The translations under genes were made by a program, and so were the position numbers. From positions 1-33,141 of the forward strand of contig JAUYTX010000097.1 in the NCBI GenBank assembly GCA_030695025.1: a stretch of 33,141 nt of DNA, read 5' to 3'. The DNA is from Bacteroidales bacterium (lineage in GTDB: Bacteria > Bacteroidota > Bacteroidia > Bacteroidales > UBA932). This document shows positions 22,387 to 32,542 of this stretch, piece after piece. The first letter of the stretch is position 1. The number at the start of each line of letters is the position of its first letter. The notes under the pieces are model-generated. The model was not told where the DNA came from. It made no database searches and saw only the letters and a program-made list of their open reading frames with translations.

Positions 22387-23517
22387 ATGAATTTTGCCAT
22401 AAAGGAGATTAGCACCTCTAAAGAGATAAAAGAGTTCGTAAAATTTCCACATAAACTTTATAAGTCAAGTAAACAGTATGTGCCCGTCCTTGATTCGGAT
22501 GAAATTAGGGTACTTACAAACAGCCCCTCTCTGGAGTATGCAAAGATTAAACTGTGGGTTGCTGTAGCTTCAAATGGAGAGATTGTAGGAAGAATTGCAG
22601 GGATTTACAATCCAAGATCAAATGAATATCATAACCAGAAACGTATTCGATTCGGGTGGTTTGATCATATTGACAGCAGGGAGGTTGCCGGAGCTTTGCT
22701 AGACTGCGTAGAAGAGTGGGGCAGAGAGATTGGAATGGAGCAGATACATGGCCCTCTTGGGTTTAATACTTGGAATCGCCAGGGAACCCTTACAGAAGGC
22801 TTTGAAAATACTCCACCTGTTAATTGCCTGTACAACTATCCATACTATTCTCAAATACTGGAGGAGTTGGGCTTTGAAAAACAGGTTGAATGGATTCAGA
22901 TAAAACTGAGGGCTGACGGTGGTGTGCCGGATAAAATAAAGAGAATTAATCAGTTACTGCTTGAAAAGCACAAGCTAAGAATTTTAGATGTAGAAGAGTT
23001 AAAGAGAGATCCAAAGTTTCTGAACAACTTCTTTAAAAGCTACAACCAAAGCTTTAGGGATATTGATAATTTTATTCCTCTTACAGAGAGTGAAGTCAGG
23101 AAGATTGCCAAAGATTATATTCCTAAACTGAGAAAAGAACTTACATGTATAATAGTTGATCAGCAGGACAATATTGCTGCTTTTGGTGTCTGTTTCCCGA
23201 ATCTGTCAAAATCATTTCAAAAAGCAGGGGGTAAATTGTTTCCATTTGGCATTTTCCACATTCTTAGGGAATTCAAAAATTATGATACTATAGATCTAAT
23301 GATTCTGGGTGCTGCTCCGGAATGGCAAAACAAAGGAATATCATCAATTTACCATACATTTATTGCAACCAACCTGGAGAGAGGAACAATAAAGTATGCA
23401 ATTACAAATCCGCAGGCAGAGGATAACTCTGCATATAAAGTTTGGGATAGGTATGGTTATGAACCATATATGAGAAGAAAATGTTTTATAAAAGATATTG
23501 AATATGTTACTCAGTGA
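22387..23517 (+). CDS. GNAT-like acyltransferase family protein
   Basis: A 376-residue cytoplasmic protein of a family common in Bacteroidota and usually labelled N-acetyltransferase or hypothetical. The N-terminal half has LWVAVASNGEIVGRIAGIYNPRS (about 57-79) and MEQIHGPLGFNTWNRQGTLTEGF (about 118-140); the C-terminal half has IDLMILGAAPEWQNKGISSIYHTFIATNLERG (about 302-333), where APEWQNKGIS stands where GNAT enzymes bind acetyl-CoA, and then AEDNSAYKVWDRYGYEP, the typical GNAT final strands. That suggests two GNAT-like halves. Acceptor unknown. It overlaps the following DRTGG gene by 14 nt, so it probably is translated with that gene, but a direct part in hydrogenase control is not shown. 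Confidence 0.75.
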   Translation: MNFAIKEISTSKEIKEFVKFPHKLYKSSKQYVPVLDSDEIRVLTNSPSLEYAKIKLWVAVASNGEIVGRIAGIYNPRSNEYHNQKRIRFGWFDHIDSREVAGALLDCVEEWGREIGMEQIHGPLGFNTWNRQGTLTEGFENTPPVNCLYNYPYYSQILEELGFEKQVEWIQIKLRADGGVPDKIKRINQLLLEKHKLRILDVEELKRDPKFLNNFFKSYNQSFRDIDNFIPLTESEVRKIAKDYIPKLRKELTCIIVDQQDNIAAFGVCFPNLSKSFQKAGGKLFPFGIFHILREFKNYDTIDLMILGAAPEWQNKGISSIYHTFIATNLERGTIKYAITNPQAEDNSAYKVWDRYGYEPYMRRKCFIKDIEYVTQ

Positions 23518-23848
23518 GATTTGTGAAATTGTTAACGGAACAGTTGTTTCGGGTGAGAGCAGGCTTAATCAAAAGGCTGAGTATGCCTTTGCTTCAGATC
23601 TTATGAGTGATGTACTCACTCTTAAGGTTGACCATTTTGTTCTTATTACGGGGCTGGCAAATGTGCAGTCCGTTCGTACAGCTGAAATGTCGGATGCCCC
23701 TTATTTACTTTTATGCAGAGGTAAAGAGGTAAGTGAAGATATGCTCAAATTAGCCATTGAGAATAATATTCTAATTATCAAAAGCCCTTTTTCTATGTTT
23801 AAATGTGCCGGACTTCTTTACAGTGCGGGCATAAAACCTGTTTATTAG
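23504..23848 (+). CDS. DRTGG domain protein (first copy)
   Basis: A 114-residue protein made up of a single DRTGG domain, a small alpha/beta fold found next to CBS domains and in phosphotransacetylases, presumed to bind a ligand or regulate. Recognisable elements are the N-terminal helix LLSEICEIVNGTVVSG, the block AFASDLMSDVLTL (about 28-40), which stands in place of the DRTGG motif, and the closing FKCAGLLYSAGI (about 99-110). I place the start at the ATG at 23504 rather than a TTG two codons upstream. Its stop is one base before the ATG of the ATPase gene. A paralogue is encoded at 25641. Such small DRTGG proteins recur in [FeFe] hydrogenase loci of anaerobes. Confidence 0.8.
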   Translation: MLLSEICEIVNGTVVSGESRLNQKAEYAFASDLMSDVLTLKVDHFVLITGLANVQSVRTAEMSDAPYLLLCRGKEVSEDMLKLAIENNILIIKSPFSMFKCAGLLYSAGIKPVY

Positions 23849-23849
23849 T

Positions 23850-24263
23850 ATGCATTTTGAATACAAGGTAGAGGGAGGAGATTTTACACTGGCAGGATAT
23901 GCCTCGTCTCAGATAAAAAAGACACTTAAGCAACTAGGGGCTGACCCTGCCGTGATAAAAAGGGTCGTTGTAGCTTTATATGAAGCTGAGGTAAACATAG
24001 TTGCCCATGCATACAGGGGCGTTATTTATGCAGATATACAGCCTGGAGGTATCATCTTAAGGCTTGTTGATGAAGGTCCCGGTATCCCGGATGTAGAGAT
24101 GGCTATGACAAAGGGCTTTTCAACCGCATCGCCTCAGGTAAGGGAGATGGGCTTCGGAGCAGGAATGGGACTACCCAACATCAGCGAGAATGCAGACTCT
24201 TTTTCGATAGAGACAGAGGTTAACAAAGGAACCACTTTAACAATAGAAATCAACTTTAAATAG
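23850..24263 (+). CDS. RsbW/SpoIIAB-like serine kinase or anti-sigma ATPase
   Basis: A 137-residue stand-alone GHKL ATPase of the anti-sigma regulatory kinase type. The N box is EAEVNIVAHAY (about 45-55), the G1 box DEGPGIPD (about 73-80), and the G2 box GFGAGMGLPNISENAD (about 100-115), followed by GTTLTIEI. It has no phosphoacceptor histidine domain, no membrane segment and no sensor. In Firmicutes such proteins phosphorylate an STAS anti-anti-sigma factor and bind a sigma factor; here there is no STAS, PP2C or sigma partner in the row, so its target must be elsewhere or is one of the neighbours (for example a DRTGG protein). Gap to the next gene is 27 nt. Confidence 0.85.
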   Translation: MHFEYKVEGGDFTLAGYASSQIKKTLKQLGADPAVIKRVVVALYEAEVNIVAHAYRGVIYADIQPGGIILRLVDEGPGIPDVEMAMTKGFSTASPQVREMGFGAGMGLPNISENADSFSIETEVNKGTTLTIEINFK

Positions 24264-24290
24264 TCAGTTTAAATTACAAATAGAGACAAC

Positions 24291-25628
24291 TTGAATATCA
24301 GACACTCGACATATCACAGAGCACTTGAAATTACAGAAAATATCTGTATTGGGTGTTCTCATTGCATAAAAGTCTGCCCAACCGAAGCTTTAAGGGTTGC
24401 CGGGGGAAAAGCGGGCATACACGCAGATTGGTGTATAGATTGTGGTGAGTGTTACAGGGCGTGCCCAACGCGAGCAATAAGGGTAATGGATGATGACTTC
24501 AACAAAATATTCGACTATAAGCATCGTGTTTTGCTGGTACCTTCAGTCTTTTTTGCCCAGTTCAGTGAATCTGTATCCAGAGAGTCAATTTATAATATTA
24601 TTGGAGAATTGGGATTTACAGAGGTGTGTGCAGTTGAGCAAAGTGTTGACTCACTTATTGACGAGATCAACGAGTATGTTAAAGCCGAAGAAAAACCTGT
24701 AATATCATCCTTTTGCCCTGCTGTTATAAGGCTTATTCAGGTAAGATTCCCATCACTGGTAGATCATATTATGAAGCTGCTTCCTCCAATTGAAATTACC
24801 GCTCAATATTACAAAAAGAGGTTTGAAAGAGATGGAATCTCAGAAAGAGACTATGGAATCTTCTATCTGACACCTTGTATCGGCAAGATTGCTGCAGTCA
24901 AATCACCTGTTGGAGGCTATACCTCCCCTATACATGGTGTAATTAATATGGACTTTTTTTACAATAAGGTATATCTTGCCTACAAACAGAGAATCCCAAT
25001 AACAACTACAATTATTATTAATAGTGAGTTGTCATCAAAGGGAGTTCTTTTTCCTACTACAGGAGGCGAATCTTCTCATATTAAGGGCAAAACGCTTGCG
25101 ATTGACGGAATGAAAAACGTGATCGATTTTTTGGAGATGCTCGAAAATGAGGAGATAAAAAATGTTGATTTTCTGGAGATCAGGGCTTGTGATGAATCGT
25201 GTGCCGGTGGAATTCTTTCTCATCGTAACAGGTTTCTCACCGCCGATAGTCTTAGGAACTACGCTGCTAAAACCCCTGAAACGCATAAGTTGGTTGAAGA
25301 TTATAAAAATTACTGTTCAGCTGTGGTTCATATGGATAAAATTGAGCCCCGGTCAATGGTAAAGTATGACAGAGATATTGAGGTTGCAATAAAGAAGATG
25401 GAGAATGCCCGTGAGCTAAAAGAGATGTTTCCGGGAATAGATTGCGGTGCTTGTGGCGCTCCCAGCTGTGAGGCACTTGCAGAGGATGTGGTAAGAGGTC
25501 AGGCAGACATTAATGCCTGTATCTTCCTTAGGACAATTTTTGAAAAGAGGGGAGAGATTACCATAAAAGAGGCCATAAAAATAATGGAGGATATCTGGGG
25601 CAAAGAGAGATTTGATAAAAACGAATAA
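24291..25628 (+). CDS. [FeFe] hydrogenase-like Fe-S protein, putative H2/redox sensor (HydS-like)
   Basis: A 445-residue cytoplasmic Fe-S protein. Order: two [4Fe-4S] ferredoxin motifs (C19-I-G-C-x2-C-x3-C area, 19-29, and C48-x2-C-x2-C-x3-C, 48-58); a hydrogenase large-subunit-like domain (about 80-325); and a C-terminal Fe-S domain (Cys385, 388, 393, 410; PF04060 type as in RnfB). The four cysteines that hold the H-cluster cubane remain (Cys142, 196, 300, 304), but the proton-relay Cys is Phe141, the two conserved Met are Thr194 and Arg298, and the glutamate of MPCxxKxxE is Ala202 (Lys199 remains). Such changes mark putative sensory hydrogenases rather than catalytic ones. There is no PAS domain. 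Start is TTG; an in-frame stop lies 30 nt upstream and no ATG is near. Catalysis cannot be excluded. Confidence 0.85.
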   Translation: MNIRHSTYHRALEITENICIGCSHCIKVCPTEALRVAGGKAGIHADWCIDCGECYRACPTRAIRVMDDDFNKIFDYKHRVLLVPSVFFAQFSESVSRESIYNIIGELGFTEVCAVEQSVDSLIDEINEYVKAEEKPVISSFCPAVIRLIQVRFPSLVDHIMKLLPPIEITAQYYKKRFERDGISERDYGIFYLTPCIGKIAAVKSPVGGYTSPIHGVINMDFFYNKVYLAYKQRIPITTTIIINSELSSKGVLFPTTGGESSHIKGKTLAIDGMKNVIDFLEMLENEEIKNVDFLEIRACDESCAGGILSHRNRFLTADSLRNYAAKTPETHKLVEDYKNYCSAVVHMDKIEPRSMVKYDRDIEVAIKKMENARELKEMFPGIDCGACGAPSCEALAEDVVRGQADINACIFLRTIFEKRGEITIKEAIKIMEDIWGKERFDKNE

Positions 25629-25640
25629 ATAATTGAAATA

Positions 25641-25973
25641 ATGACACTTAGAGAGATTAAAGAGAGTTTGAACCTCAAAGTATATTCAGGTGAAAACCTA
25701 TTGGAAAACGAGGTGACAGGTGGTTATGCATCTGACCTGCTGTCAGATGTTATGGGCCATGCCTCTGAAGGAGACCTTTGGATAACACTTCAGACCCATA
25801 AAAATGTAGTTGGAGTAGCTTCTCTTAAAGATTTGTCTGCCATAATTCTTGTAAAGGGATTTACTCCCGATAAAGAGACTCTTGATATGGCCGGAAATGA
25901 AAACATTCCGGTTCTGGGAACAGATATGGAGACATTTGAGTTTTGCGGAGTTTTATATAACCTTTTGAAATAA
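25641..25973 (+). CDS. DRTGG domain protein (second copy)
   Basis: A 110-residue single-domain protein paralogous to the one at 23504: the same helix (LREIKESLNLKVYSG), the same block in the same place (GYASDLLSDVMGHA, about 28-41) and the same closing FEFCGVLYNLL. The two copies flank the ATPase and sensor-like genes, 12 nt after the latter. Both lack catalytic residues, suggesting a binding or adaptor part; they might form a heterodimer. Ligand unknown. Confidence 0.82.
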   Translation: MTLREIKESLNLKVYSGENLLENEVTGGYASDLLSDVMGHASEGDLWITLQTHKNVVGVASLKDLSAIILVKGFTPDKETLDMAGNENIPVLGTDMETFEFCGVLYNLLK

Positions 25974-25992
25974 AGGTCAGTTTTTAAAATCT

Positions 25993-26706
25993 GTGAAAGC
26001 CGATCTTCACATTCACTCCCTGTTGTCACCCTGCGGAGACATCGAAATGACACCTTTTAACATTGTAACAAAGGCGTTGGAAATGGGCTTGTCTGTGATA
26101 GGCATTACAGATCACAACTCAACCCGCCAGTGTGCTGAGATTGTAAAGATTGCTTCACGCAAAGAGCTTTTTGTTCTTTGCGGAGCAGAAATCACAACAA
26201 AAGAGGAGGTTCATGTGCTGGTTTTTGTTGATGGCCCATCTAATCTGGCAAAATTGCAAAACTATTTGAACGATCATTTACCGCATGTGCCAAATAATAC
26301 GGATGTGTTTGGTTATCAGCTTGTGGTAAACGAAAATGAAGAGGTTCTGTATCAGGAAGAAACCTTGCTGATTAGTGCGCTGGACCAGACAATTGAAGAG
26401 GTCGAACAGTTCATCAGCTCTTTAGGTGGGATCTTTATACCTGCACACATTGACAAAAAACAGAACTCTGTTATGAGTCAGCTTGGGTTCATGCCACCCG
26501 GACTCAGACCAAATGCCCTTGAATTGTCTCCGGGAACCGATGCCGGGATATTCAGGACTAAAAATAAATACCTATCCGGTTTCACTTTTATCCACTCCTC
26601 TGATGCGCATTACCCTGAAGATATCGGAAGAGTATATACAGATATTCCGGTTAAGGAACTCTCATTTGATGGGATAAAAATTGCATTAAGCAGCAATTTA
26701 AAATGA
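25993..26706 (+). CDS. PHP-domain phosphoesterase
   Basis: A 237-residue PHP-family metal-dependent phosphoesterase. The metal ligands are clear: DLHIHSLLSPCGD (4-16), GITDHNS (about 38-44), CGAEITTKEEVHVL (about 62-75), PAHIDKK (about 156-162) and HSSDAHYPEDIG (about 206-217). Family members remove phosphate from nucleotides, histidinol phosphate or phosphoproteins. It starts at GTG (25993), which puts the metal-binding HxH at residues 6 and 8 as usual. Located 19 nt after the DRTGG gene and 18 nt before an ATPase gene, it may act as the phosphatase that opposes a kinase in the row, or make or destroy a small signalling nucleotide (inference). Confidence 0.88.
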   Translation: MKADLHIHSLLSPCGDIEMTPFNIVTKALEMGLSVIGITDHNSTRQCAEIVKIASRKELFVLCGAEITTKEEVHVLVFVDGPSNLAKLQNYLNDHLPHVPNNTDVFGYQLVVNENEEVLYQEETLLISALDQTIEEVEQFISSLGGIFIPAHIDKKQNSVMSQLGFMPPGLRPNALELSPGTDAGIFRTKNKYLSGFTFIHSSDAHYPEDIGRVYTDIPVKELSFDGIKIALSSNLK

Positions 26707-26724
26707 AAGAAACAGTAACTGAAA

Positions 26725-27276
26725 ATGAATGAAATATCTCTGCATATAATAGATATCATACAAAATTCTCTCTCTGCCGGGGCTTCTCTTATCCGCGTTA
26801 TAATTGATGAAAATCTTGTCCATAATTTACTCTCAGTAACAATTGCTGACAACGGAAAAGGGATGACAAAAGAGCAGGTCGAGAGGCTTGATGATCCATT
26901 TTTTACTTCGAGAACTACCAGAAGGGTTGGAATGGGCATTCCTCTCTTCCGACAATCTGCGGAGCAGAGTGGGGGAGATCTAGTAGTTACTTCTGAACCT
27001 GGATTTGGAACAACTGTTAAGGCGAATTTTTTAAATGACCATATTGACAGACCTCCACTGGGAGAAATTGCCAACTCAATGGTTCTAATGATCTCTGCAA
27101 ATCCTGACAAAGATTTTGTGTTTGAATATATCTATAATGGAAGCAGCTATATTTTTGATACAGTTGAAATTAAGTCTGTACTTGAAGAGCTGCCACTTAA
27201 TGACCCGGCTGTTATAAGAATGCTTACTGAGATGATTGATGAGAACATCAAAGATTTAAAAACCCAGTCTGATTAA
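26725..27276 (+). CDS. GHKL (histidine-kinase-like) ATPase domain protein
   Basis: A 183-residue ATP-binding protein of the histidine-kinase catalytic fold without a dimerisation/phosphoacceptor domain or sensor. N box: HIIDIIQNSLSAGAS (about 7-21). G1: IADNGKGM (about 41-48). F/G2 region: DDPFFTSRTTRRVGMGIPLFRQSAEQSGG (about 56-84), ending with GTTVKANF. The C-terminal 75 residues are not assigned. It differs from the RsbW-like ATPase at 23850 in having the HisKA-type F box (FFTSR). Two nucleotide-binding GHKL proteins in one row is unusual. It ends two bases before the sirtuin gene. Confidence 0.83.
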   Translation: MNEISLHIIDIIQNSLSAGASLIRVIIDENLVHNLLSVTIADNGKGMTKEQVERLDDPFFTSRTTRRVGMGIPLFRQSAEQSGGDLVVTSEPGFGTTVKANFLNDHIDRPPLGEIANSMVLMISANPDKDFVFEYIYNGSSYIFDTVEIKSVLEELPLNDPAVIRMLTEMIDENIKDLKTQSD

Positions 27277-27278
27277 CC

Positions 27279-27974
27279 ATGAATAAGCTTAAGAAAATAG
27301 TCTTCCTTACCGGAGCAGGCGTTAGTGCCGATAGCGGTTTGGAAACATTCCGCGCATCTGATGGTCTTTGGGCAAAACACAGAATTGAAGATGTTTGTAC
27401 TCCCGAAGCTCTTGAAAGAAACCCGGCGCAAGTTCTTGAATTTTATAATGCAAGAAGGCGGCAACTAAAAGAAGTAGAGCCAAATACCGGCCATTTTGCA
27501 ATTGCCCGGCTGGAGAAATATTTCGATGCTGAGATAATAACTCAAAATGTGGATAATCTGCACGAAAGGGCAGGTTCGGCAAGAATTTTGCATATGCACG
27601 GCGAATTAACCAAGTGCAGAAGTATGAAAGATAGTTCATATATTTGCACCGTGGAGGGTGATTTGAATGTGGGTGATATGTGTCCTGTTGGTGGTCAGTT
27701 GAGACCCCATATCGTGTTCTTTGGAGAGCAGGTGCCATTAATGGAGAGGGCAATTGAGATTATTTCGACTGCAGACATTGTAGTTGTTGCCGGAACTTCA
27801 CTGGCAGTTTATCCTGCAGCAGGGTTAGTCAGATATGCCCCTAAAGGGGCAGATATCTATGTTATTGACCCCGATCAAGTTGATATTGGTGCGAAAAATG
27901 TAAAATATATTAGAGAACGATTCGCAATTGGAATGCCGCAATTAGCTGAAAAACTGATAAATACATATTATTAA
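27279..27974 (+). CDS. cobB: Sir2-family NAD-dependent protein deacylase (CobB/SIRT5-like)
   Basis: Sirtuins remove acyl groups from lysine using NAD and release nicotinamide and O-acyl-ADP-ribose. The 231-residue product has GAGVSADSGLETFR (12-25), TQNVDNLHERAG (88-99), the catalytic His107 in MHGEL, and PHIVFFGE (143-150). Tyr56 and Arg59 in FYNAR form the Y-x2-R pair that in SIRT5/CobB favours succinyl and malonyl groups. Of the four structural Zn cysteines only three are seen (113, 123, 135; the last reads CPVGG), as in many Bacteroidota relatives. It follows the ATPase gene by two bases and precedes the hydrogenase operon by 112 nt, so it is co-transcribed with the sensing row; it could report NAD/NADH status. 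Confidence 0.92.
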   Translation: MNKLKKIVFLTGAGVSADSGLETFRASDGLWAKHRIEDVCTPEALERNPAQVLEFYNARRRQLKEVEPNTGHFAIARLEKYFDAEIITQNVDNLHERAGSARILHMHGELTKCRSMKDSSYICTVEGDLNVGDMCPVGGQLRPHIVFFGEQVPLMERAIEIISTADIVVVAGTSLAVYPAAGLVRYAPKGADIYVIDPDQVDIGAKNVKYIRERFAIGMPQLAEKLINTYY

Positions 27975-28086: not shown

Positions 28087-28488
28087 ATGAATAAGATCAA
28101 ATCCCTTGACGATTTGCGAAAGATGAAGCAAAGTCTGGAGCACGGAATGACAATCCGTGAGAATAGCAATTCGCCGGAGTCTCTTGTTCAGATCCGGGTC
28201 GCTATGGCAACCTGTGGCATTGCTGCCGGTGCCAGAACGGTGATGAACACTCTCATTGAGAAGTTGGAGAAGGAAAAGATTCCCGCTGTGGTGACACAAG
28301 GTGGGTGTATGGGTTACTGCTATGCAGAACCGACTATCGAGGTTAAGGTACCCGGCAAAGATCCGGTTGTCTTTGGTAAAGTCGATTCAGCAGTTGCTGA
28401 GGAGATCGTTGTTAAGTACATCAAAAACGGTGAACTTATTGACGGTATCATTCCTGTGAACTATCAATCAATTAATGAGCAAAAGTAG
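28087..28488 (+). CDS. Thioredoxin-like [2Fe-2S] ferredoxin protein of the hydrogenase operon
   Basis: A 133-residue small Fe-S protein found at the head of many trimeric [FeFe] hydrogenase operons. Residues about 33-130 make a thioredoxin-like [2Fe-2S] fold with MATCGIAAGAR (40-50) and QGGCMGYCYAEP (71-82). Only three cysteines are present (43, 74, 78), since the position of the usual second one reads Ala in CGIAAG; the cluster must have a different fourth ligand or be absent. The N-terminal 30 residues look helical. The protein likely docks on HydB or HydC and may pass electrons. It is 112 nt after the sirtuin gene and overlaps or abuts hydB depending on that gene's start. Confidence 0.85.
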   Translation: MNKIKSLDDLRKMKQSLEHGMTIRENSNSPESLVQIRVAMATCGIAAGARTVMNTLIEKLEKEKIPAVVTQGGCMGYCYAEPTIEVKVPGKDPVVFGKVDSAVAEEIVVKYIKNGELIDGIIPVNYQSINEQK

Positions 28489-28492
28489 AATT

Positions 28493-30286
28493 ATGGCACA
28501 ATACAAAATGCATTTGCTGGTTTGTGGAGGTACCGGTTGCAGGGCCTCACAAAGTGAAGAGGTTGTTGCAAATCTTAACACAGAAATTAAAAAACAGGGT
28601 CTTGAAAATGATGCTCAGGTTGTTACTACCGGTTGCTTCGGCTTTTGCGAAAAGGGGCCAATCGTAAAAATCATCCCTGATAACACTTTCTACACTCAGG
28701 TTACACCCGAAGATTGTGCTGAGATTATCAGCGAGCATGTTCTTAAGGGACGCAGAGTGCACAGACTTCTTTATGAAGATCCTGAGACTCTTAAACACAT
28801 CGAAGATTCAAAGCATATGGGCTTCTATCAGAAGCAGATAAGAATTGCGCTTAGGAACTGCGGTTTTATTGATCCTGAAAATATTGACGAGTATATAGCC
28901 AGAGATGGTTACGCTGCTCTTGGAAAGGTTCTTACAGAGATGACTCCTGCAGAGGCTGTTGATTTACTTAAGAAATCCGGCTTGAGAGGTCGTGGTGGCG
29001 GAGGATTCCCTACTGGTCTTAAGTGGGAAATTGCTGCTTCCAACAAGTCTGATGAAAAATATGTGGTTTGCAATGCAGACGAGGGAGACCCGGGTGCATT
29101 CATGGACCGCTCAATTCTTGAGGGAGACTCTCACTCGGTTATTGAGGCTATGGCAATTTGCGGATACTGTATTGGTGCTTCAAACGGTCTCGTTTACATC
29201 AGAGCAGAATATCCCCTTGCAATCAAAAGGTTGCAGATTGCAATAGAGCAGGCTAAAGAGTATGGTTTACTTGGAGATAACATTCTTGGAACAGGTTTCT
29301 CATTCAATATTGAATTAAAATACGGAGCAGGTGCTTTTGTATGTGGAGAGGAGACTGCTCTTATTCACTCAATGGAGGGGCTTAGGGGAGAACCAACTGT
29401 TAAACCACCGTTTCCTGCAGAAAAGGGTTATCTTGGAAAACCAACCAATGTTAACAACGTTGAGACTTTTGCAAATATCCCGGTTATTTACCTAATGGGA
29501 GCAGAATGGTTCGCAAGCATTGGAACAGAGAAGTCAAAAGGTACCAAAGTATTTGCACTTGCCGGTAAGATAAACAATGTAGGCCTTATTGAGGTCCCTA
29601 TGGGTATCACACTCAGAGAGGTAATCTTCGAGATCGGAGGTGGTATTAAAGATGGTAAAAAGTTCAAGGCCGTTCAAACCGGAGGTCCTTCAGGAGGATG
29701 TCTCACTGAAAAACACCTCGATACACCAATTGATTTTGACAATCTTGTTGCTGCAGGTTCAATGATGGGATCAGGTGGTATGATTGTAATGGACGAAGAT
29801 GACTGTATGGTCTCAATTGCTAAATTCTATCTTGAGTTCACAGTTGAGGAGTCATGCGGAAAATGTGCACCTTGTCGCATTGGTAATAAGAGACTTCATG
29901 AACTTCTTGAGAAGATTTGTGATGGTAAGGGAACTGAAGACGATCTGGAACACCTTAAGAATCTAAGCAATGTTATCAAAGATACATCGCTTTGTGGTCT
30001 TGGCCAGACATCTCCGAATCCTGTTCTTTCTACTCTCGAGCACTTCTCTGATGAATATCTTGCACACGTTAGAGAAAGAATATGTACTGCCGGTAAATGT
30101 AAGGCACTCAAACTATATACTATTATCGCCGATAAGTGTACAGGATGTACAGCTTGTACAAGAGCATGTCCTGTTGCTGCAATTACCGGAGAGAAGCGTC
30201 AACCGCACGTCATTGATGTTGACAAATGTATCAGATGTGGTGCTTGTTACGACAAGTGTAAGTTTTCAGCAATTTATGTTCAATAA
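28493..30286 (+). CDS. hydB: [FeFe] hydrogenase subunit HydB (NuoF-like flavoprotein)
   Basis: HydB carries FMN and the NAD(H) site of the electron-bifurcating hydrogenase. With the ATG at 28493 it has 597 residues: an N-terminal thioredoxin-like [2Fe-2S] domain (Cys11, 16, 48, 52), the NuoF core with GRGGGGFPTG (166-175) for FMN and NADEGDPGAF (about 194-203), the NuoF [4Fe-4S] site SCGKCAPCRIG (about 451-461) plus a distant Cys in SLCGLG, and a C-terminal pair of [4Fe-4S] ferredoxin motifs (Cys549/552/555/559 and 579/582/585/589). This C-terminal extension distinguishes HydB from complex I NuoF. An ATG at 28475 overlapping the previous gene is an alternative start adding six residues. Confidence 0.96.
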   Translation: MAQYKMHLLVCGGTGCRASQSEEVVANLNTEIKKQGLENDAQVVTTGCFGFCEKGPIVKIIPDNTFYTQVTPEDCAEIISEHVLKGRRVHRLLYEDPETLKHIEDSKHMGFYQKQIRIALRNCGFIDPENIDEYIARDGYAALGKVLTEMTPAEAVDLLKKSGLRGRGGGGFPTGLKWEIAASNKSDEKYVVCNADEGDPGAFMDRSILEGDSHSVIEAMAICGYCIGASNGLVYIRAEYPLAIKRLQIAIEQAKEYGLLGDNILGTGFSFNIELKYGAGAFVCGEETALIHSMEGLRGEPTVKPPFPAEKGYLGKPTNVNNVETFANIPVIYLMGAEWFASIGTEKSKGTKVFALAGKINNVGLIEVPMGITLREVIFEIGGGIKDGKKFKAVQTGGPSGGCLTEKHLDTPIDFDNLVAAGSMMGSGGMIVMDEDDCMVSIAKFYLEFTVEESCGKCAPCRIGNKRLHELLEKICDGKGTEDDLEHLKNLSNVIKDTSLCGLGQTSPNPVLSTLEHFSDEYLAHVRERICTAGKCKALKLYTIIADKCTGCTACTRACPVAAITGEKRQPHVIDVDKCIRCGACYDKCKFSAIYVQ

Positions 30287-30295
30287 TCCGAGGCT

Positions 30296-32059
30296 ATGGG
30301 AAATATTAAAGTCAAAATAGATAATGTTGAGGTAGAGGTTAAAAGAGGCTCTACCATCTACCAGGCAGCAAAGCAAATCGGAATAGACATTCCGGTTCTC
30401 TGCTATATGAATCTTAACCACATGCAGATTGAGAACCGTCCGGGAGGATGCCGTATATGTGTTGTGGAAGTCGAAGGAAGAAAAAATCTTGCTCCTTCAT
30501 GCTCTACCGATTGTTTTGATGGTATGGTTGTAAAAACCAAGAGCATCAGGGTACTGAACGCAAGAAAAACAGTTCTTGAACTGATTCTTTCTGACCACCC
30601 GCCAAAATGTCTTGTTTGTTCATCTTCAGGTAAATGTGACCTGCAGGAGCTAGCACAGCGTTTCGGTATCAGAGAGGTTCACATGGTTGAAAATGCTGAG
30701 GTATCAACTTACAGAAAAGATGCCTCTCCAGCACTTAACCGTGACATGGACAAATGTATCATGTGCCGCAGATGCGAAACTGTTTGCAACGATGTTCAGA
30801 CAGTGGGCGCTTTGAGTGCGGTTAACCGTGGTTTTATGTCTGTAGTTGCTCCTGCTTTTGAGCAGGATCTTGTAGATTCACCTTGTACTTTCTGCGGACA
30901 GTGTGTGGCAGTTTGTCCTACAGGTGCACTTACTCCTTACGATGACACCCCAATGATTATAAGAGCTCTTGCCGATCCTTCAAAAACCGTTATTGTTCAA
31001 ACAGCTCCTGCTGTTCGTGCAGCCCTTGGTGAAGAATTCGGATTAAATCCGGGAACACTTGTTACCGGCAAAATGGTGGCAGCTCTAAGGTCATTAGGTT
31101 TCGATAAGGTATTTGACACAGACTTTGCAGCTGACCTTACCATTATGGAAGAGGGTGCAGAGCTTCTAGACAGGATCACAAGATATGTTAACGGTGACAA
31201 GGAGGTTAAACTTCCAATCCTTACATCTTGCTGCCCGGCATGGGTTAACTTCTTTGAGGTTTACTTCCCGGATATGCTTGATGTTCCTTCAACTGCCCGT
31301 TCTCCTCAGCAGATGTTTGGCTCAATTGCCAAAACATATTATGCCGATCTTATTGGAGTGAAAAGAGAAGACCTTGTAGTTGTCTCAATCATGCCATGTC
31401 TTGCGAAGAAATTTGAGTGTCAGAGGGATGAGTTCAAGGTTGACGGAAATCCTGATGTTGATTACTCTATCTCTACAAGAGAGTTGGCATCACTTATTAA
31501 GGCGGCCAATATAAACTTTGACAAGCTTGAGGACGAGGAGTTTGATCTTCCAATGGGTGAATCAACAGGTGCGGGAGTTATCTTCGGTGTTACCGGTGGT
31601 GTAATCGAAGCAGCTGTACGTACAGCCTATGAAGTATTTACCGGAAATAAACTTAACAGAATCAATTTTGAAGAGTTACGCGGTCTGGCAGGTATTCGTA
31701 CTGCTACTATCTATTTTGGAGAGACTCCGATTCACATCGGTATAGCTCACCAACTTGGTAATGCCAGAAAATTGCTTAATGGCATCAGAGAGGGAAGGTA
31801 TAACTTCCACGCCATTGAAATCATGGCATGTCCGGGTGGCTGCATCGGTGGTGCAGGTCAGCCTCTACACCATGGTGATTCAAGCGTAATAAAGGCTCGT
31901 TACGAAGCAATATACAAAGAGGATACAGGCAAAACAATTCGCAAGTCTCATGAAAATCCTTATATAATAAAACTATATGAAGATTTTCTCGGCAAGCCGT
32001 TGAGTGAGAAATCACACCACCTGCTTCATACTCACTACTTTGACAAACATAAAATATAG
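30296..32059 (+). CDS. hydA: [FeFe] hydrogenase catalytic subunit HydA (bifurcating type)
   Basis: HydA makes or oxidises H2. The 587-residue product has an N-terminal [2Fe-2S] domain (Cys36, 52, 55, 69 or 73), the His/Cys3 [4Fe-4S] motif of the complex I G subunit (His101, Cys105, 108, 114), two [4Fe-4S] motifs (Cys154/157/160/164 and 197/200/203/207), and the H domain. All three H-cluster motifs are complete: TSCCPAW (310-316), MPCLAKKFE (366-374) and MACPGGC (510-516), followed by GGAGQP and the small-subunit-like tail. Cluster cysteines are 313, 368, 512 and 516, with Cys312 as proton relay. This architecture and hydB/hydC neighbours mark group A3-type electron-bifurcating enzymes. Maturases HydE/F/G are not in the window. 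Confidence 0.97.
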   Translation: MGNIKVKIDNVEVEVKRGSTIYQAAKQIGIDIPVLCYMNLNHMQIENRPGGCRICVVEVEGRKNLAPSCSTDCFDGMVVKTKSIRVLNARKTVLELILSDHPPKCLVCSSSGKCDLQELAQRFGIREVHMVENAEVSTYRKDASPALNRDMDKCIMCRRCETVCNDVQTVGALSAVNRGFMSVVAPAFEQDLVDSPCTFCGQCVAVCPTGALTPYDDTPMIIRALADPSKTVIVQTAPAVRAALGEEFGLNPGTLVTGKMVAALRSLGFDKVFDTDFAADLTIMEEGAELLDRITRYVNGDKEVKLPILTSCCPAWVNFFEVYFPDMLDVPSTARSPQQMFGSIAKTYYADLIGVKREDLVVVSIMPCLAKKFECQRDEFKVDGNPDVDYSISTRELASLIKAANINFDKLEDEEFDLPMGESTGAGVIFGVTGGVIEAAVRTAYEVFTGNKLNRINFEELRGLAGIRTATIYFGETPIHIGIAHQLGNARKLLNGIREGRYNFHAIEIMACPGGCIGGAGQPLHHGDSSVIKARYEAIYKEDTGKTIRKSHENPYIIKLYEDFLGKPLSEKSHHLLHTHYFDKHKI

Positions 32060-32065
32060 ACCGTT

Positions 32066-32542
32066 ATGAGTACTTTCAAATTACAAGATTGTCACAAGCA
32101 AACATTAAAAGATATCTGTAAGTCGTTTAACAACAATCCTGGCGAGCTTATCAGTGTTCTTCACAAGACACAGAGTGAGTTCGGATATCTTCCCGAAGCG
32201 ATTCAGCGTGAAATAGCAAATAACCTGAAAATTTCGGTTGCCAAGGTCTATGGTGTTGTCACTTTCTATTCATTCTTCACTATGACTCCAAAGGGCAAAT
32301 ACCCAATATCTGTTTGTACAGGTACTGCGTGTTATGTTCGCGGGGCTGAGAAGATTGTTGATGAACTTAAAGATCAACTTAAGATTAAAGTTGGCGGAGT
32401 TACTGAAGATGGTAAGTTTTCACTTGACTGCCTAAGGTGCGTTGGTGCCTGCGGTCTTGCTCCGGTAGTATTGATCGGTGAGAAGGTTTATGGCAGGGTT
32501 GAGGCTCACCAGATTAAAGGAATTCTGGAAAGCTACGAGTAG
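32066..32542 (+). CDS. hydC: [FeFe] hydrogenase subunit HydC (NuoE-like [2Fe-2S] protein)
   Basis: HydC is the NuoE-like subunit that, with HydB, forms the NAD(H)-oxidising arm. The 158-residue product has an N-terminal helical domain (about 10-60), then a thioredoxin-like fold with the [2Fe-2S] ligands in CTGTAC (Cys84 and 89) and CVGACG (Cys125 and 129). The linker SFFTMTPKGKY is family-typical. It begins six bases after the hydA stop, and is the last gene of the operon before the terminator at 32601. In many genomes hydC is the first gene of such operons; here it is last. Confidence 0.95.
   Translation: MSTFKLQDCHKQTLKDICKSFNNNPGELISVLHKTQSEFGYLPEAIQREIANNLKISVAKVYGVVTFYSFFTMTPKGKYPISVCTGTACYVRGAEKIVDELKDQLKIKVGGVTEDGKFSLDCLRCVGACGLAPVVLIGEKVYGRVEAHQIKGILESYE

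Follow-up and report, generated by a model that had tools for sequence, protein, structure and literature searches.

The window analysed here is the whole 33,141-base contig C45 (JAUYTX010000097.1) of a 2.25 Mb draft genome of a Bacteroidales bacterium (GCA_030695025.1), which is 90.95% complete. Upstream of its [FeFe] hydrogenase genes it carries a row of closely packed genes, six of which (D1, K1, HydS, D2, PHP and K2) constitute a conserved six-gene unit. We give a probability of about 50% to the reading that the six proteins form one physically associated redox-signalling module, which mostly serves NAD/ferredoxin (Bfu/HydBC-type) electron-bifurcating enzymes. This reading is supported by gene order, by co-occurrence, by gene fusions, by conserved catalytic and ligand residues, and by some lineages that keep the unit but have no hydrogenase. 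Signal, kinase reaction, kinase substrate and output are what we infer. Proteins of the window were assigned to families by Pfam and NCBIfam profile searches (aa, amino acids; HK, histidine kinase):

23504-23848, forward strand: D1, DRTGG-domain protein, 114 aa (PF07085, 27.5 bits)
23850-24263, forward strand: K1, predicted SpoIIAB/RsbW-like GHKL kinase, 137 aa (HATPase_c_2, 44.5 bits)
24291-25628, forward strand: HydS, group-D-like [FeFe]-hydrogenase homologue (Fe_hyd_lg_C, 80.1 bits, and PF04060)
25641-25973, forward strand: D2, DRTGG-domain protein, 110 aa (DRTGG, 29.4 bits)
25993-26706, forward strand: PHP-type phosphoesterase with intact candidate metal ligands (PHP, 35.4 bits)
26725-27276, forward strand: K2, stand-alone MutL/HK-like GHKL ATPase (HATPase_c, 56 bits)
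27279-27974, forward strand: SIR2-family protein, a sirtuin (SIR2, 143 bits)
28087-28488, forward strand: HydD-like small protein, 133 aa, on the enzyme side of the row (weak 2Fe-2S matches, conserved position, K2 fusion)
28475-30286, forward strand: HydB (BfuB-type) flavin subunit (PF01512, Complex1_51K, 154.4 bits; PF10589, 114 bits)
30296-32059, forward strand: HydA, catalytic [FeFe]-hydrogenase subunit of A6 type (NF040763, 877.3 bits with a cut-off of 765, and motifs)
32066-32542, forward strand: HydC, 2Fe-2S thioredoxin-like (PF01257, 172.5 bits)

The original prediction had described seven genes, sirtuin included, with gaps of 1-27 nucleotides (nt) that lead into [FeFe] hydrogenase genes. 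The list of open reading frames (ORFs) and the Pfam families agree with this: the successive gaps are 1, 27, 12, 19, 18 and 2 nt, and hydD, hydB, hydA and hydC lie downstream. The SIR2 gene and hydD are spaced by 112 nt, an interval in which a simple scan revealed no terminator-like site. For D1, the ORF list also offers an alternative TTG start six bases further upstream. The HydD-like protein has no Pfam match and matches 2Fe-2S ferredoxins weakly (24.6 bits with a cut-off of 150).

Conservation and fusions of the six genes

From the close Bacteroidota set, 10 of 12 loci were used, leaving out a short fragment (L038) and a weak Clostridium match (L039). All ten contain the six parts in the order D1-K1-HydS-D2-PHP-K2, followed by hydD-hydB-hydA-hydC; in one relative (L031) the contig ends within hydA. 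Among foreign HydS matches the best two genomes (G172, G180) were taken, the other 18 being weaker and mostly proteins of 580-710 aa. Both distant Bacteroidota loci possess all six parts, with HydS proteins that are 31 and 33% identical to that of the window. Within the taxonomic order to which the window belongs, HydS was found at E <= 1e-40 in 18 of 58 genomes, including the window genome itself. All six parts are present in 12 of the 17 other loci from this order, and four of the five incomplete ones hit a contig edge shortly after HydS, while K2 went undetected in the fifth (L208).

The survey was extended to 398 genomes of Bacillota_A, the phylum of the Clostridium sp. genome G296 (the phylum name was assigned here), and 158 of them have a HydS relative at E <= 1e-40. 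From 78 of these genomes 80 regions were fetched and 79 were kept after dropping a duplicate (L136); since they were picked partly for odd ORF lengths and for absence of the A6 hydrogenase, exceptions are over-represented. Of the 79 loci, 59 show all six parts, the usual order being D1-K1-HydS-D2-PHP-hydC-K2-hydD-hydB-hydA. The arrangement hydC-K2 occurs in 54 loci and hydC-K2-hydD in 48, while K2 of the window lies two genes before hydD. Parts that went undetected were D1 and PHP (12 loci each), K2 (10), D2 (4) and K1 (3). The gene order is thus kept beyond close relatives, namely in distant Bacteroidota, in the order of the window and in Bacillota_A; its absence there would have refuted the original prediction. 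Because the gene set is conserved in two phyla, chance clustering can be ruled out. A record labelled Parabacteroides distasonis has a complete row with no adjacent hyd genes, so that a common gut commensal probably has the row as well. The sequence NZ_OY725779.1 (L186), labelled as a plasmid of this species, bears gyrA and is therefore probably a piece of the chromosome.

A K2 profile search of the 398 Bacillota_A genomes gave matches in 168 of them at E <= 1e-30. HydS and K2 occur together in 153 genomes, K2 alone in 15 and HydS alone in 5 (Fisher test, 9e-85, uncorrected for relatedness). Natural fusions are found among the 79 loci: D+K1 in seven, PHP+K2 in six, K1+HydS and HydS+D in two each, and K2+HydD in one (L155). 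In the order of the window, D2-PHP is the only neighbouring pair of the six for which no fusion was found, and one fusion extends to HydD of the enzyme operon. Each fusion type with more than one locus groups together in the HydS tree, which points to about five fusion events; the PHP+K2 clade also contains L154, a short contig piece for which no fusion was scored. Fusions and co-occurrence are good evidence that the row parts are associated. The six parts are apparently physically linked and represent an old unit across unrelated anaerobes.

The SIR2 gene is a local addition outside the conserved row. It is found within the row in the window and in eight of the ten close relatives, which is what speaks for the pathway of seven parts that had been proposed, with the sirtuin reading the NAD state. 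Against this pathway, the two remaining relatives (L030, L034) lack SIR2 while the rest of their row is intact, and SIR2 is missing from all 17 other loci of the order and from both distant Bacteroidota loci. It occurs in one of the 79 Bacillota_A loci, there 3.5 kb upstream of HydS. With this distribution the sirtuin was rejected as a core part. As a component of the row in general it is largely refuted, although it may have a local role; the seven-part pathway is very improbable.

Enzymes encoded beside the row

The row mostly lies next to enzymes that transfer electrons between NAD and ferredoxin. It is not hydrogenase-specific: other copies adjoin genes for formate dehydrogenase, HdrA-like proteins or Rnf, and some stand by themselves. 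In two loci (L117, L118) hydC, K2, hydD and hydB come next, and then a formate dehydrogenase of molybdenum type that is divided between two frames; its larger part scores 692 and 688 bits (TIGR01591 cut-off 666). Six further loci (L126-L130, L152) have hydC-hydD-hydB together with HydA-like N-terminal parts divergent from the row; in L126, which alone of this group was scanned, the HydA-like part runs on into a molybdopterin domain. In L044 and L045, a HydA-like N-terminal part is continued by an HdrA2-like one, which scores 429 and 430 bits and so stays below the curated cut-off of 1100 in both; annotation of these "hydA" genes as hydrogenase was rejected because of this C-terminal part. The region L044:2784-14838 comprises the row with hydC, hydD, hydB and the HydA/HdrA2-like hybrid; upstream lie genes resembling malate dehydrogenase, HdrB, HdrC and the HdrA N-terminus, several of these labels having been given by eye. 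In L102, D-K1-HydS-D-PHP is located immediately 5' of rnf genes (RnfC and RnfD over cut-off), and in L120 RseC and Rex genes adjoin hydD-hydC-hydB. Six loci contain the six genes without adjoining hyd genes (L116, L121, L122, L124, L211, L216). Three others (L088, L103, L148) have K1-HydS only, preceded by a DNA-binding response regulator as identified by Pfam. The pair in L088 is followed by a 637-aa protein (L088:7034-8947) with Fe_hyd_lg_C, FeS and MCP chemotaxis-signalling domains, that is, a hydrogenase-like domain wired to chemotaxis signalling.

These neighbourhoods sustain the view that the row is a coherent sensing or signalling-type unit tied to this enzyme class. Its restriction to hydrogen and hydrogenase did not hold, given the formate dehydrogenase, HdrA-like, Rnf and stand-alone cases and the genomes without HydF and HydG that are described below. 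The statement that the row includes no DNA-binding protein is correct for the window and fails for the three Bacillota loci where a response regulator precedes K1-HydS. The row-adjacent hydrogenase and formate dehydrogenase are of kinds that are placed in the Bfu (HydABC-type) family in the accessible text of PMC9304861; that paper covers the enzymes, and a term search of the same text returned no histidine kinase, ATPase or PHP.

A different explanation is that the row is an assembly or maturation set, in which K2 as a GHL-type ATPase, PHP and a D-K1-HydS-D complex would act as chaperones when Bfu enzymes receive their Fe-S clusters or are assembled from subunits, and no signalling would take place. 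K2 could indeed be an assembly factor, which also has to be counted against a signalling module, and such a role, for K2 as for the whole row, is in our view a serious rival. However, at the thresholds used, HydS is missing from 140 of 287 A6-positive genomes, and K2 too from 127 of the 140, so that making the enzyme apparently does not require them. Complete rows that stand alone argue in the same direction, as do the K1-HydS pairs behind a response regulator, which have no hyd genes nearby. We therefore regard the assembly set as rather unlikely.

HydS, hydrogen and redox state

HydS of the window consists of two [4Fe-4S] clusters, an H-domain and a C-terminal Cx2Cx4Cx16C motif (C385-x2-C388-x4-C393-x16-C410), with no PAS domain among its Pfam matches at E 1e-3. 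Its motifs are SSFCP, with F in place of C299, and TPC, with T in place of M353. This fits the definition of group D (M2e) in the accessible part of PMC8163306, according to which the proton-transfer Cys299 is lost and Ser or Thr is found at M353. By domains and motifs, HydS is thus classified as group-D-like (M2e). In the 92 aligned HydS proteins, the candidate [4Fe-4S]H cysteines C142, C196, C300 and C304 are invariably present, and the Cys299 position is invariably occupied by another residue. Lys199, which we take to correspond to K358 of CpI, the lysine that holds the diiron site, is found in 86 of them, the others having Gln (4), Arg (1) or Glu (1). Among the 17 further loci from the order of the window, one (L209) has Gln at this position.

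Genes for building the H-cluster were searched in 16 genomes, with every HydG and HydF candidate scored against curated cut-offs. Both are over cut-off only in the window genome, G477 and G668, and neither is in the other 13. A search for Fe_hyd_lg_C proteins (E <= 1e-8) in 14 genomes found HydS to be the sole such protein in seven (G172, G328, G404, G454, G473, G523, G595), and in none of these seven is HydF or HydG over cut-off. Four of the seven represent one clade in which Lys199 is replaced by Gln. Across the 398 Bacillota_A genomes, HydG was counted as positive at E < 1e-80, a threshold of our own; matches of 1e-50 to 1e-66 were presumed to be the paralogue ThiH. HydG is absent from 10 of 11 HydS-positive genomes without A6 hydrogenase and from 36 of 147 with it. 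The maturases thus track the catalytic enzyme and not HydS.

These results bear on the proposal that all carriers use HydS as a sensory hydrogenase and that the row tunes hydrogenase to the hydrogen level. In its favour, the H-cluster cysteines are conserved, HydG and HydF are both encoded in the window genome, and TamHydS turns over hydrogen and is encoded upstream of a bifurcating hydrogenase (accessible parts of PMC8163306 and PMC13104023). The A6-negative carriers without HydG, the seven genomes in which HydS is alone, and the replacement of K199 by Gln in one clade and in L209 and by Arg or Glu elsewhere speak against it. A hydrogen-specific sensor is thus improbable, and the statement that every HydS senses hydrogen is weakened by K199 loss and by the maturase-less HydS-only genomes. 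Because some carriers lack the known genes for building the hydrogen site, the unit probably responds to the redox state and not to hydrogen alone. HydS of the window may also carry an H-cluster and sense hydrogen, as its genome has HydF and HydG.

Several observations weigh against redox sensing as the common function. HydG is found more often in genomes with HydS (112 of 158) than in those without (102 of 240), which also counts for the hydrogen sensor. In five genomes (G311, G397, G431, G486, G180) HydA has canonical motifs while neither HydF nor HydG is over cut-off; G352, also without the two maturases, has three more Fe_hyd_lg_C proteins. Missing maturases are therefore no proof of a missing H-cluster, and draft genomes can miss genes. 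K199 is retained in eight of the 13 maturase-less genomes, whereas HydS of L148 has lost it in a genome that encodes both HydG and HydF. If HydS proteins of maturase-less genomes signal in the absence of an H-cluster, the label "H2 sensor" is too narrow for the group; electron bifurcation, which influences the yields of hydrogen, formate and ATP, would then be under a dedicated redox control in anaerobes.

The closest described parts are TamHydS and HydE of Acetobacterium woodii. In the accessible portions of PMC8163306 and PMC13104023, TamHydS from Thermoanaerobacter mathranii is the only characterised group D (M2e) enzyme, and its other flank is an AraC regulator according to the authors. 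In our loci, HydS is typically followed by a DRTGG gene (D2 in 75 of the 79 Bacillota_A loci), and a D-K1-D-PHP-K2 unit is not described in those portions. The C-terminal cluster of TamHydS is not reduced by hydrogen according to the accessible text of the 2026 study (PMC13104023). That text and the corresponding part of the 2020 paper (PMC8163306) leave open how group D sensory hydrogenases transfer their signal. The conserved row and its fusions name K1, D1, D2, PHP and K2 as likely signalling partners of HydS and provide a chain that can be tested.

Partner proteins and a possible signalling chain

The only solved relative of K1 at E <= 0.01 is the anti-sigma F factor SpoIIAB (2e-8). Residues E45, N49, D74, G76, G78, G103, G105 and G107, which make up the N-box and the G1 and G2 boxes, are invariant in all 88 sequences, and the N-box Glu is catalytic in SpoIIAB. 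K1 resembles the partner-switch kinases SpoIIAB and RsbW in sequence family and N-box residues. In contrast to these, it scores 46.1 bits with the SpoIIAB profile TIGR01925, below the curated cut-off of 135, and no STAS antagonist or sigma factor is found by Pfam among the row proteins of the window. The DRTGG assignment agrees with both Pfam score and fold. S35 and T49 of D1 are invariant in 80 of 80 aligned proteins; in the D2 model, the loop of residues 39-54, which contains T49, Q51 and H53, has a pLDDT below 50, so that we do not claim a pocket. PHP shows the metal-ligand pattern HxH...DH...E...H...H...DxH, with H6, H8, D40, H41, E66, H74 and H152 conserved in 80 of 80 proteins and D204 and H206 in 78.

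K2 matches are limited to HATPase_c families and leave about 80 C-terminal residues over. As Pfam finds neither an acceptor-His domain in K2 nor a receiver among the row proteins of the window, a two-component system was rejected for the window. By family and position, K2 is the counterpart of HydE from A. woodii, which in the accessible text of PMC3315566 is a stand-alone ATPase resembling the ATP-binding domains of histidine kinases, encoded in a five-gene hyd operon that starts with hydC. In Bacillota_A loci, K2 is likewise an HK-like ATPase among hyd genes beside hydC. Unlike the row, the A. woodii operon, compared by its description in that text, has no HydS, K1, DRTGG or PHP.

HydS-like proteins from Ruminococcus albus 7 (L188, pRUMAL01) and Monoglobus (L189), which we take to be group C, are followed by a SpoIIE family phosphatase, and this was counted for the signalling module. 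They keep Cys at the Cys299 position, and in R. albus 7 Rex and adhE are located upstream. At E 1e-3 the R. albus 7 protein has no PAS match, and the Monoglobus protein has only sub-cut-off PAS matches. Group C sensory HydS, represented by the R. albus 7 protein and by TmHydS in the accessible part of PMC10055695, shares the H-domain and the C-terminal FeS domain with HydS of the window and differs in its neighbours, with 25% identity to that protein. A HATPase domain is reported for group C1 hydrogenases of Hydrogenedentota in the accessible text of PMC11406978.

In the redox-signalling module that we favour, HydS would read the low-potential electron pool via its [4Fe-4S] clusters, and hydrogen too where a diiron H-cluster is installed. 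Its state would be passed to the attached K1, a predicted SpoIIAB-type Ser/Thr kinase. D1 and D2 may be phospho-acceptors or ligand-binding partners of K1 and would replace the STAS protein of the classical partner switch, while PHP would reverse the modification or remove a nucleotide ligand. The ATP-dependent K2 would then dock on HydD/HydC/HydB and accordingly gate or assemble the enzyme. The simplest chain would lead from the HydS state via K1, D1/D2 and PHP/K2 to HydD and the enzyme. It must be set against this chain that no known kinase target, be it a STAS protein, a sigma factor or another, is among the row proteins of the window, that D1 is undetected in 12 of the 79 Bacillota_A loci and PHP likewise in 12, so that some parts are not constant, and that biochemistry of K1, D1, D2, PHP and K2 as signalling proteins was not found in the literature searched.

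More tentatively, and at somewhat less than even odds, the row may serve flavin-based electron bifurcation in anaerobes as a general signalling system. An Fe-S protein of hydrogenase descent would sense the ferredoxin redox state without hydrogen or an H-cluster and drive a SpoIIAB-type kinase/DRTGG switch and a K2/PHP arm on the enzyme, hydrogen sensing being derived or optional. In the open-licence literature we found no paper describing the row, and an earlier description in subscription papers is possible. Searches of the same literature for DRTGG with hydrogenase returned only one unrelated paper, and those for HydABC with sirtuin and for bifurcating hydrogenase with anti-sigma and PHP returned none.

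Two further observations concern genes at either side of the row. HydA has the motif TSCCP in the window and nine close relatives, and TSCSP, with Ser for the second Cys, in 49 of the 51 Bacillota proteins with the motif (e.g. L076-L115). Directly 5' of D1, and overlapping it by 14 nt, lies the gene for a 376-aa protein (22387-23517) without Pfam or NCBIfam match, which is kept upstream of D1 in all ten close relatives.

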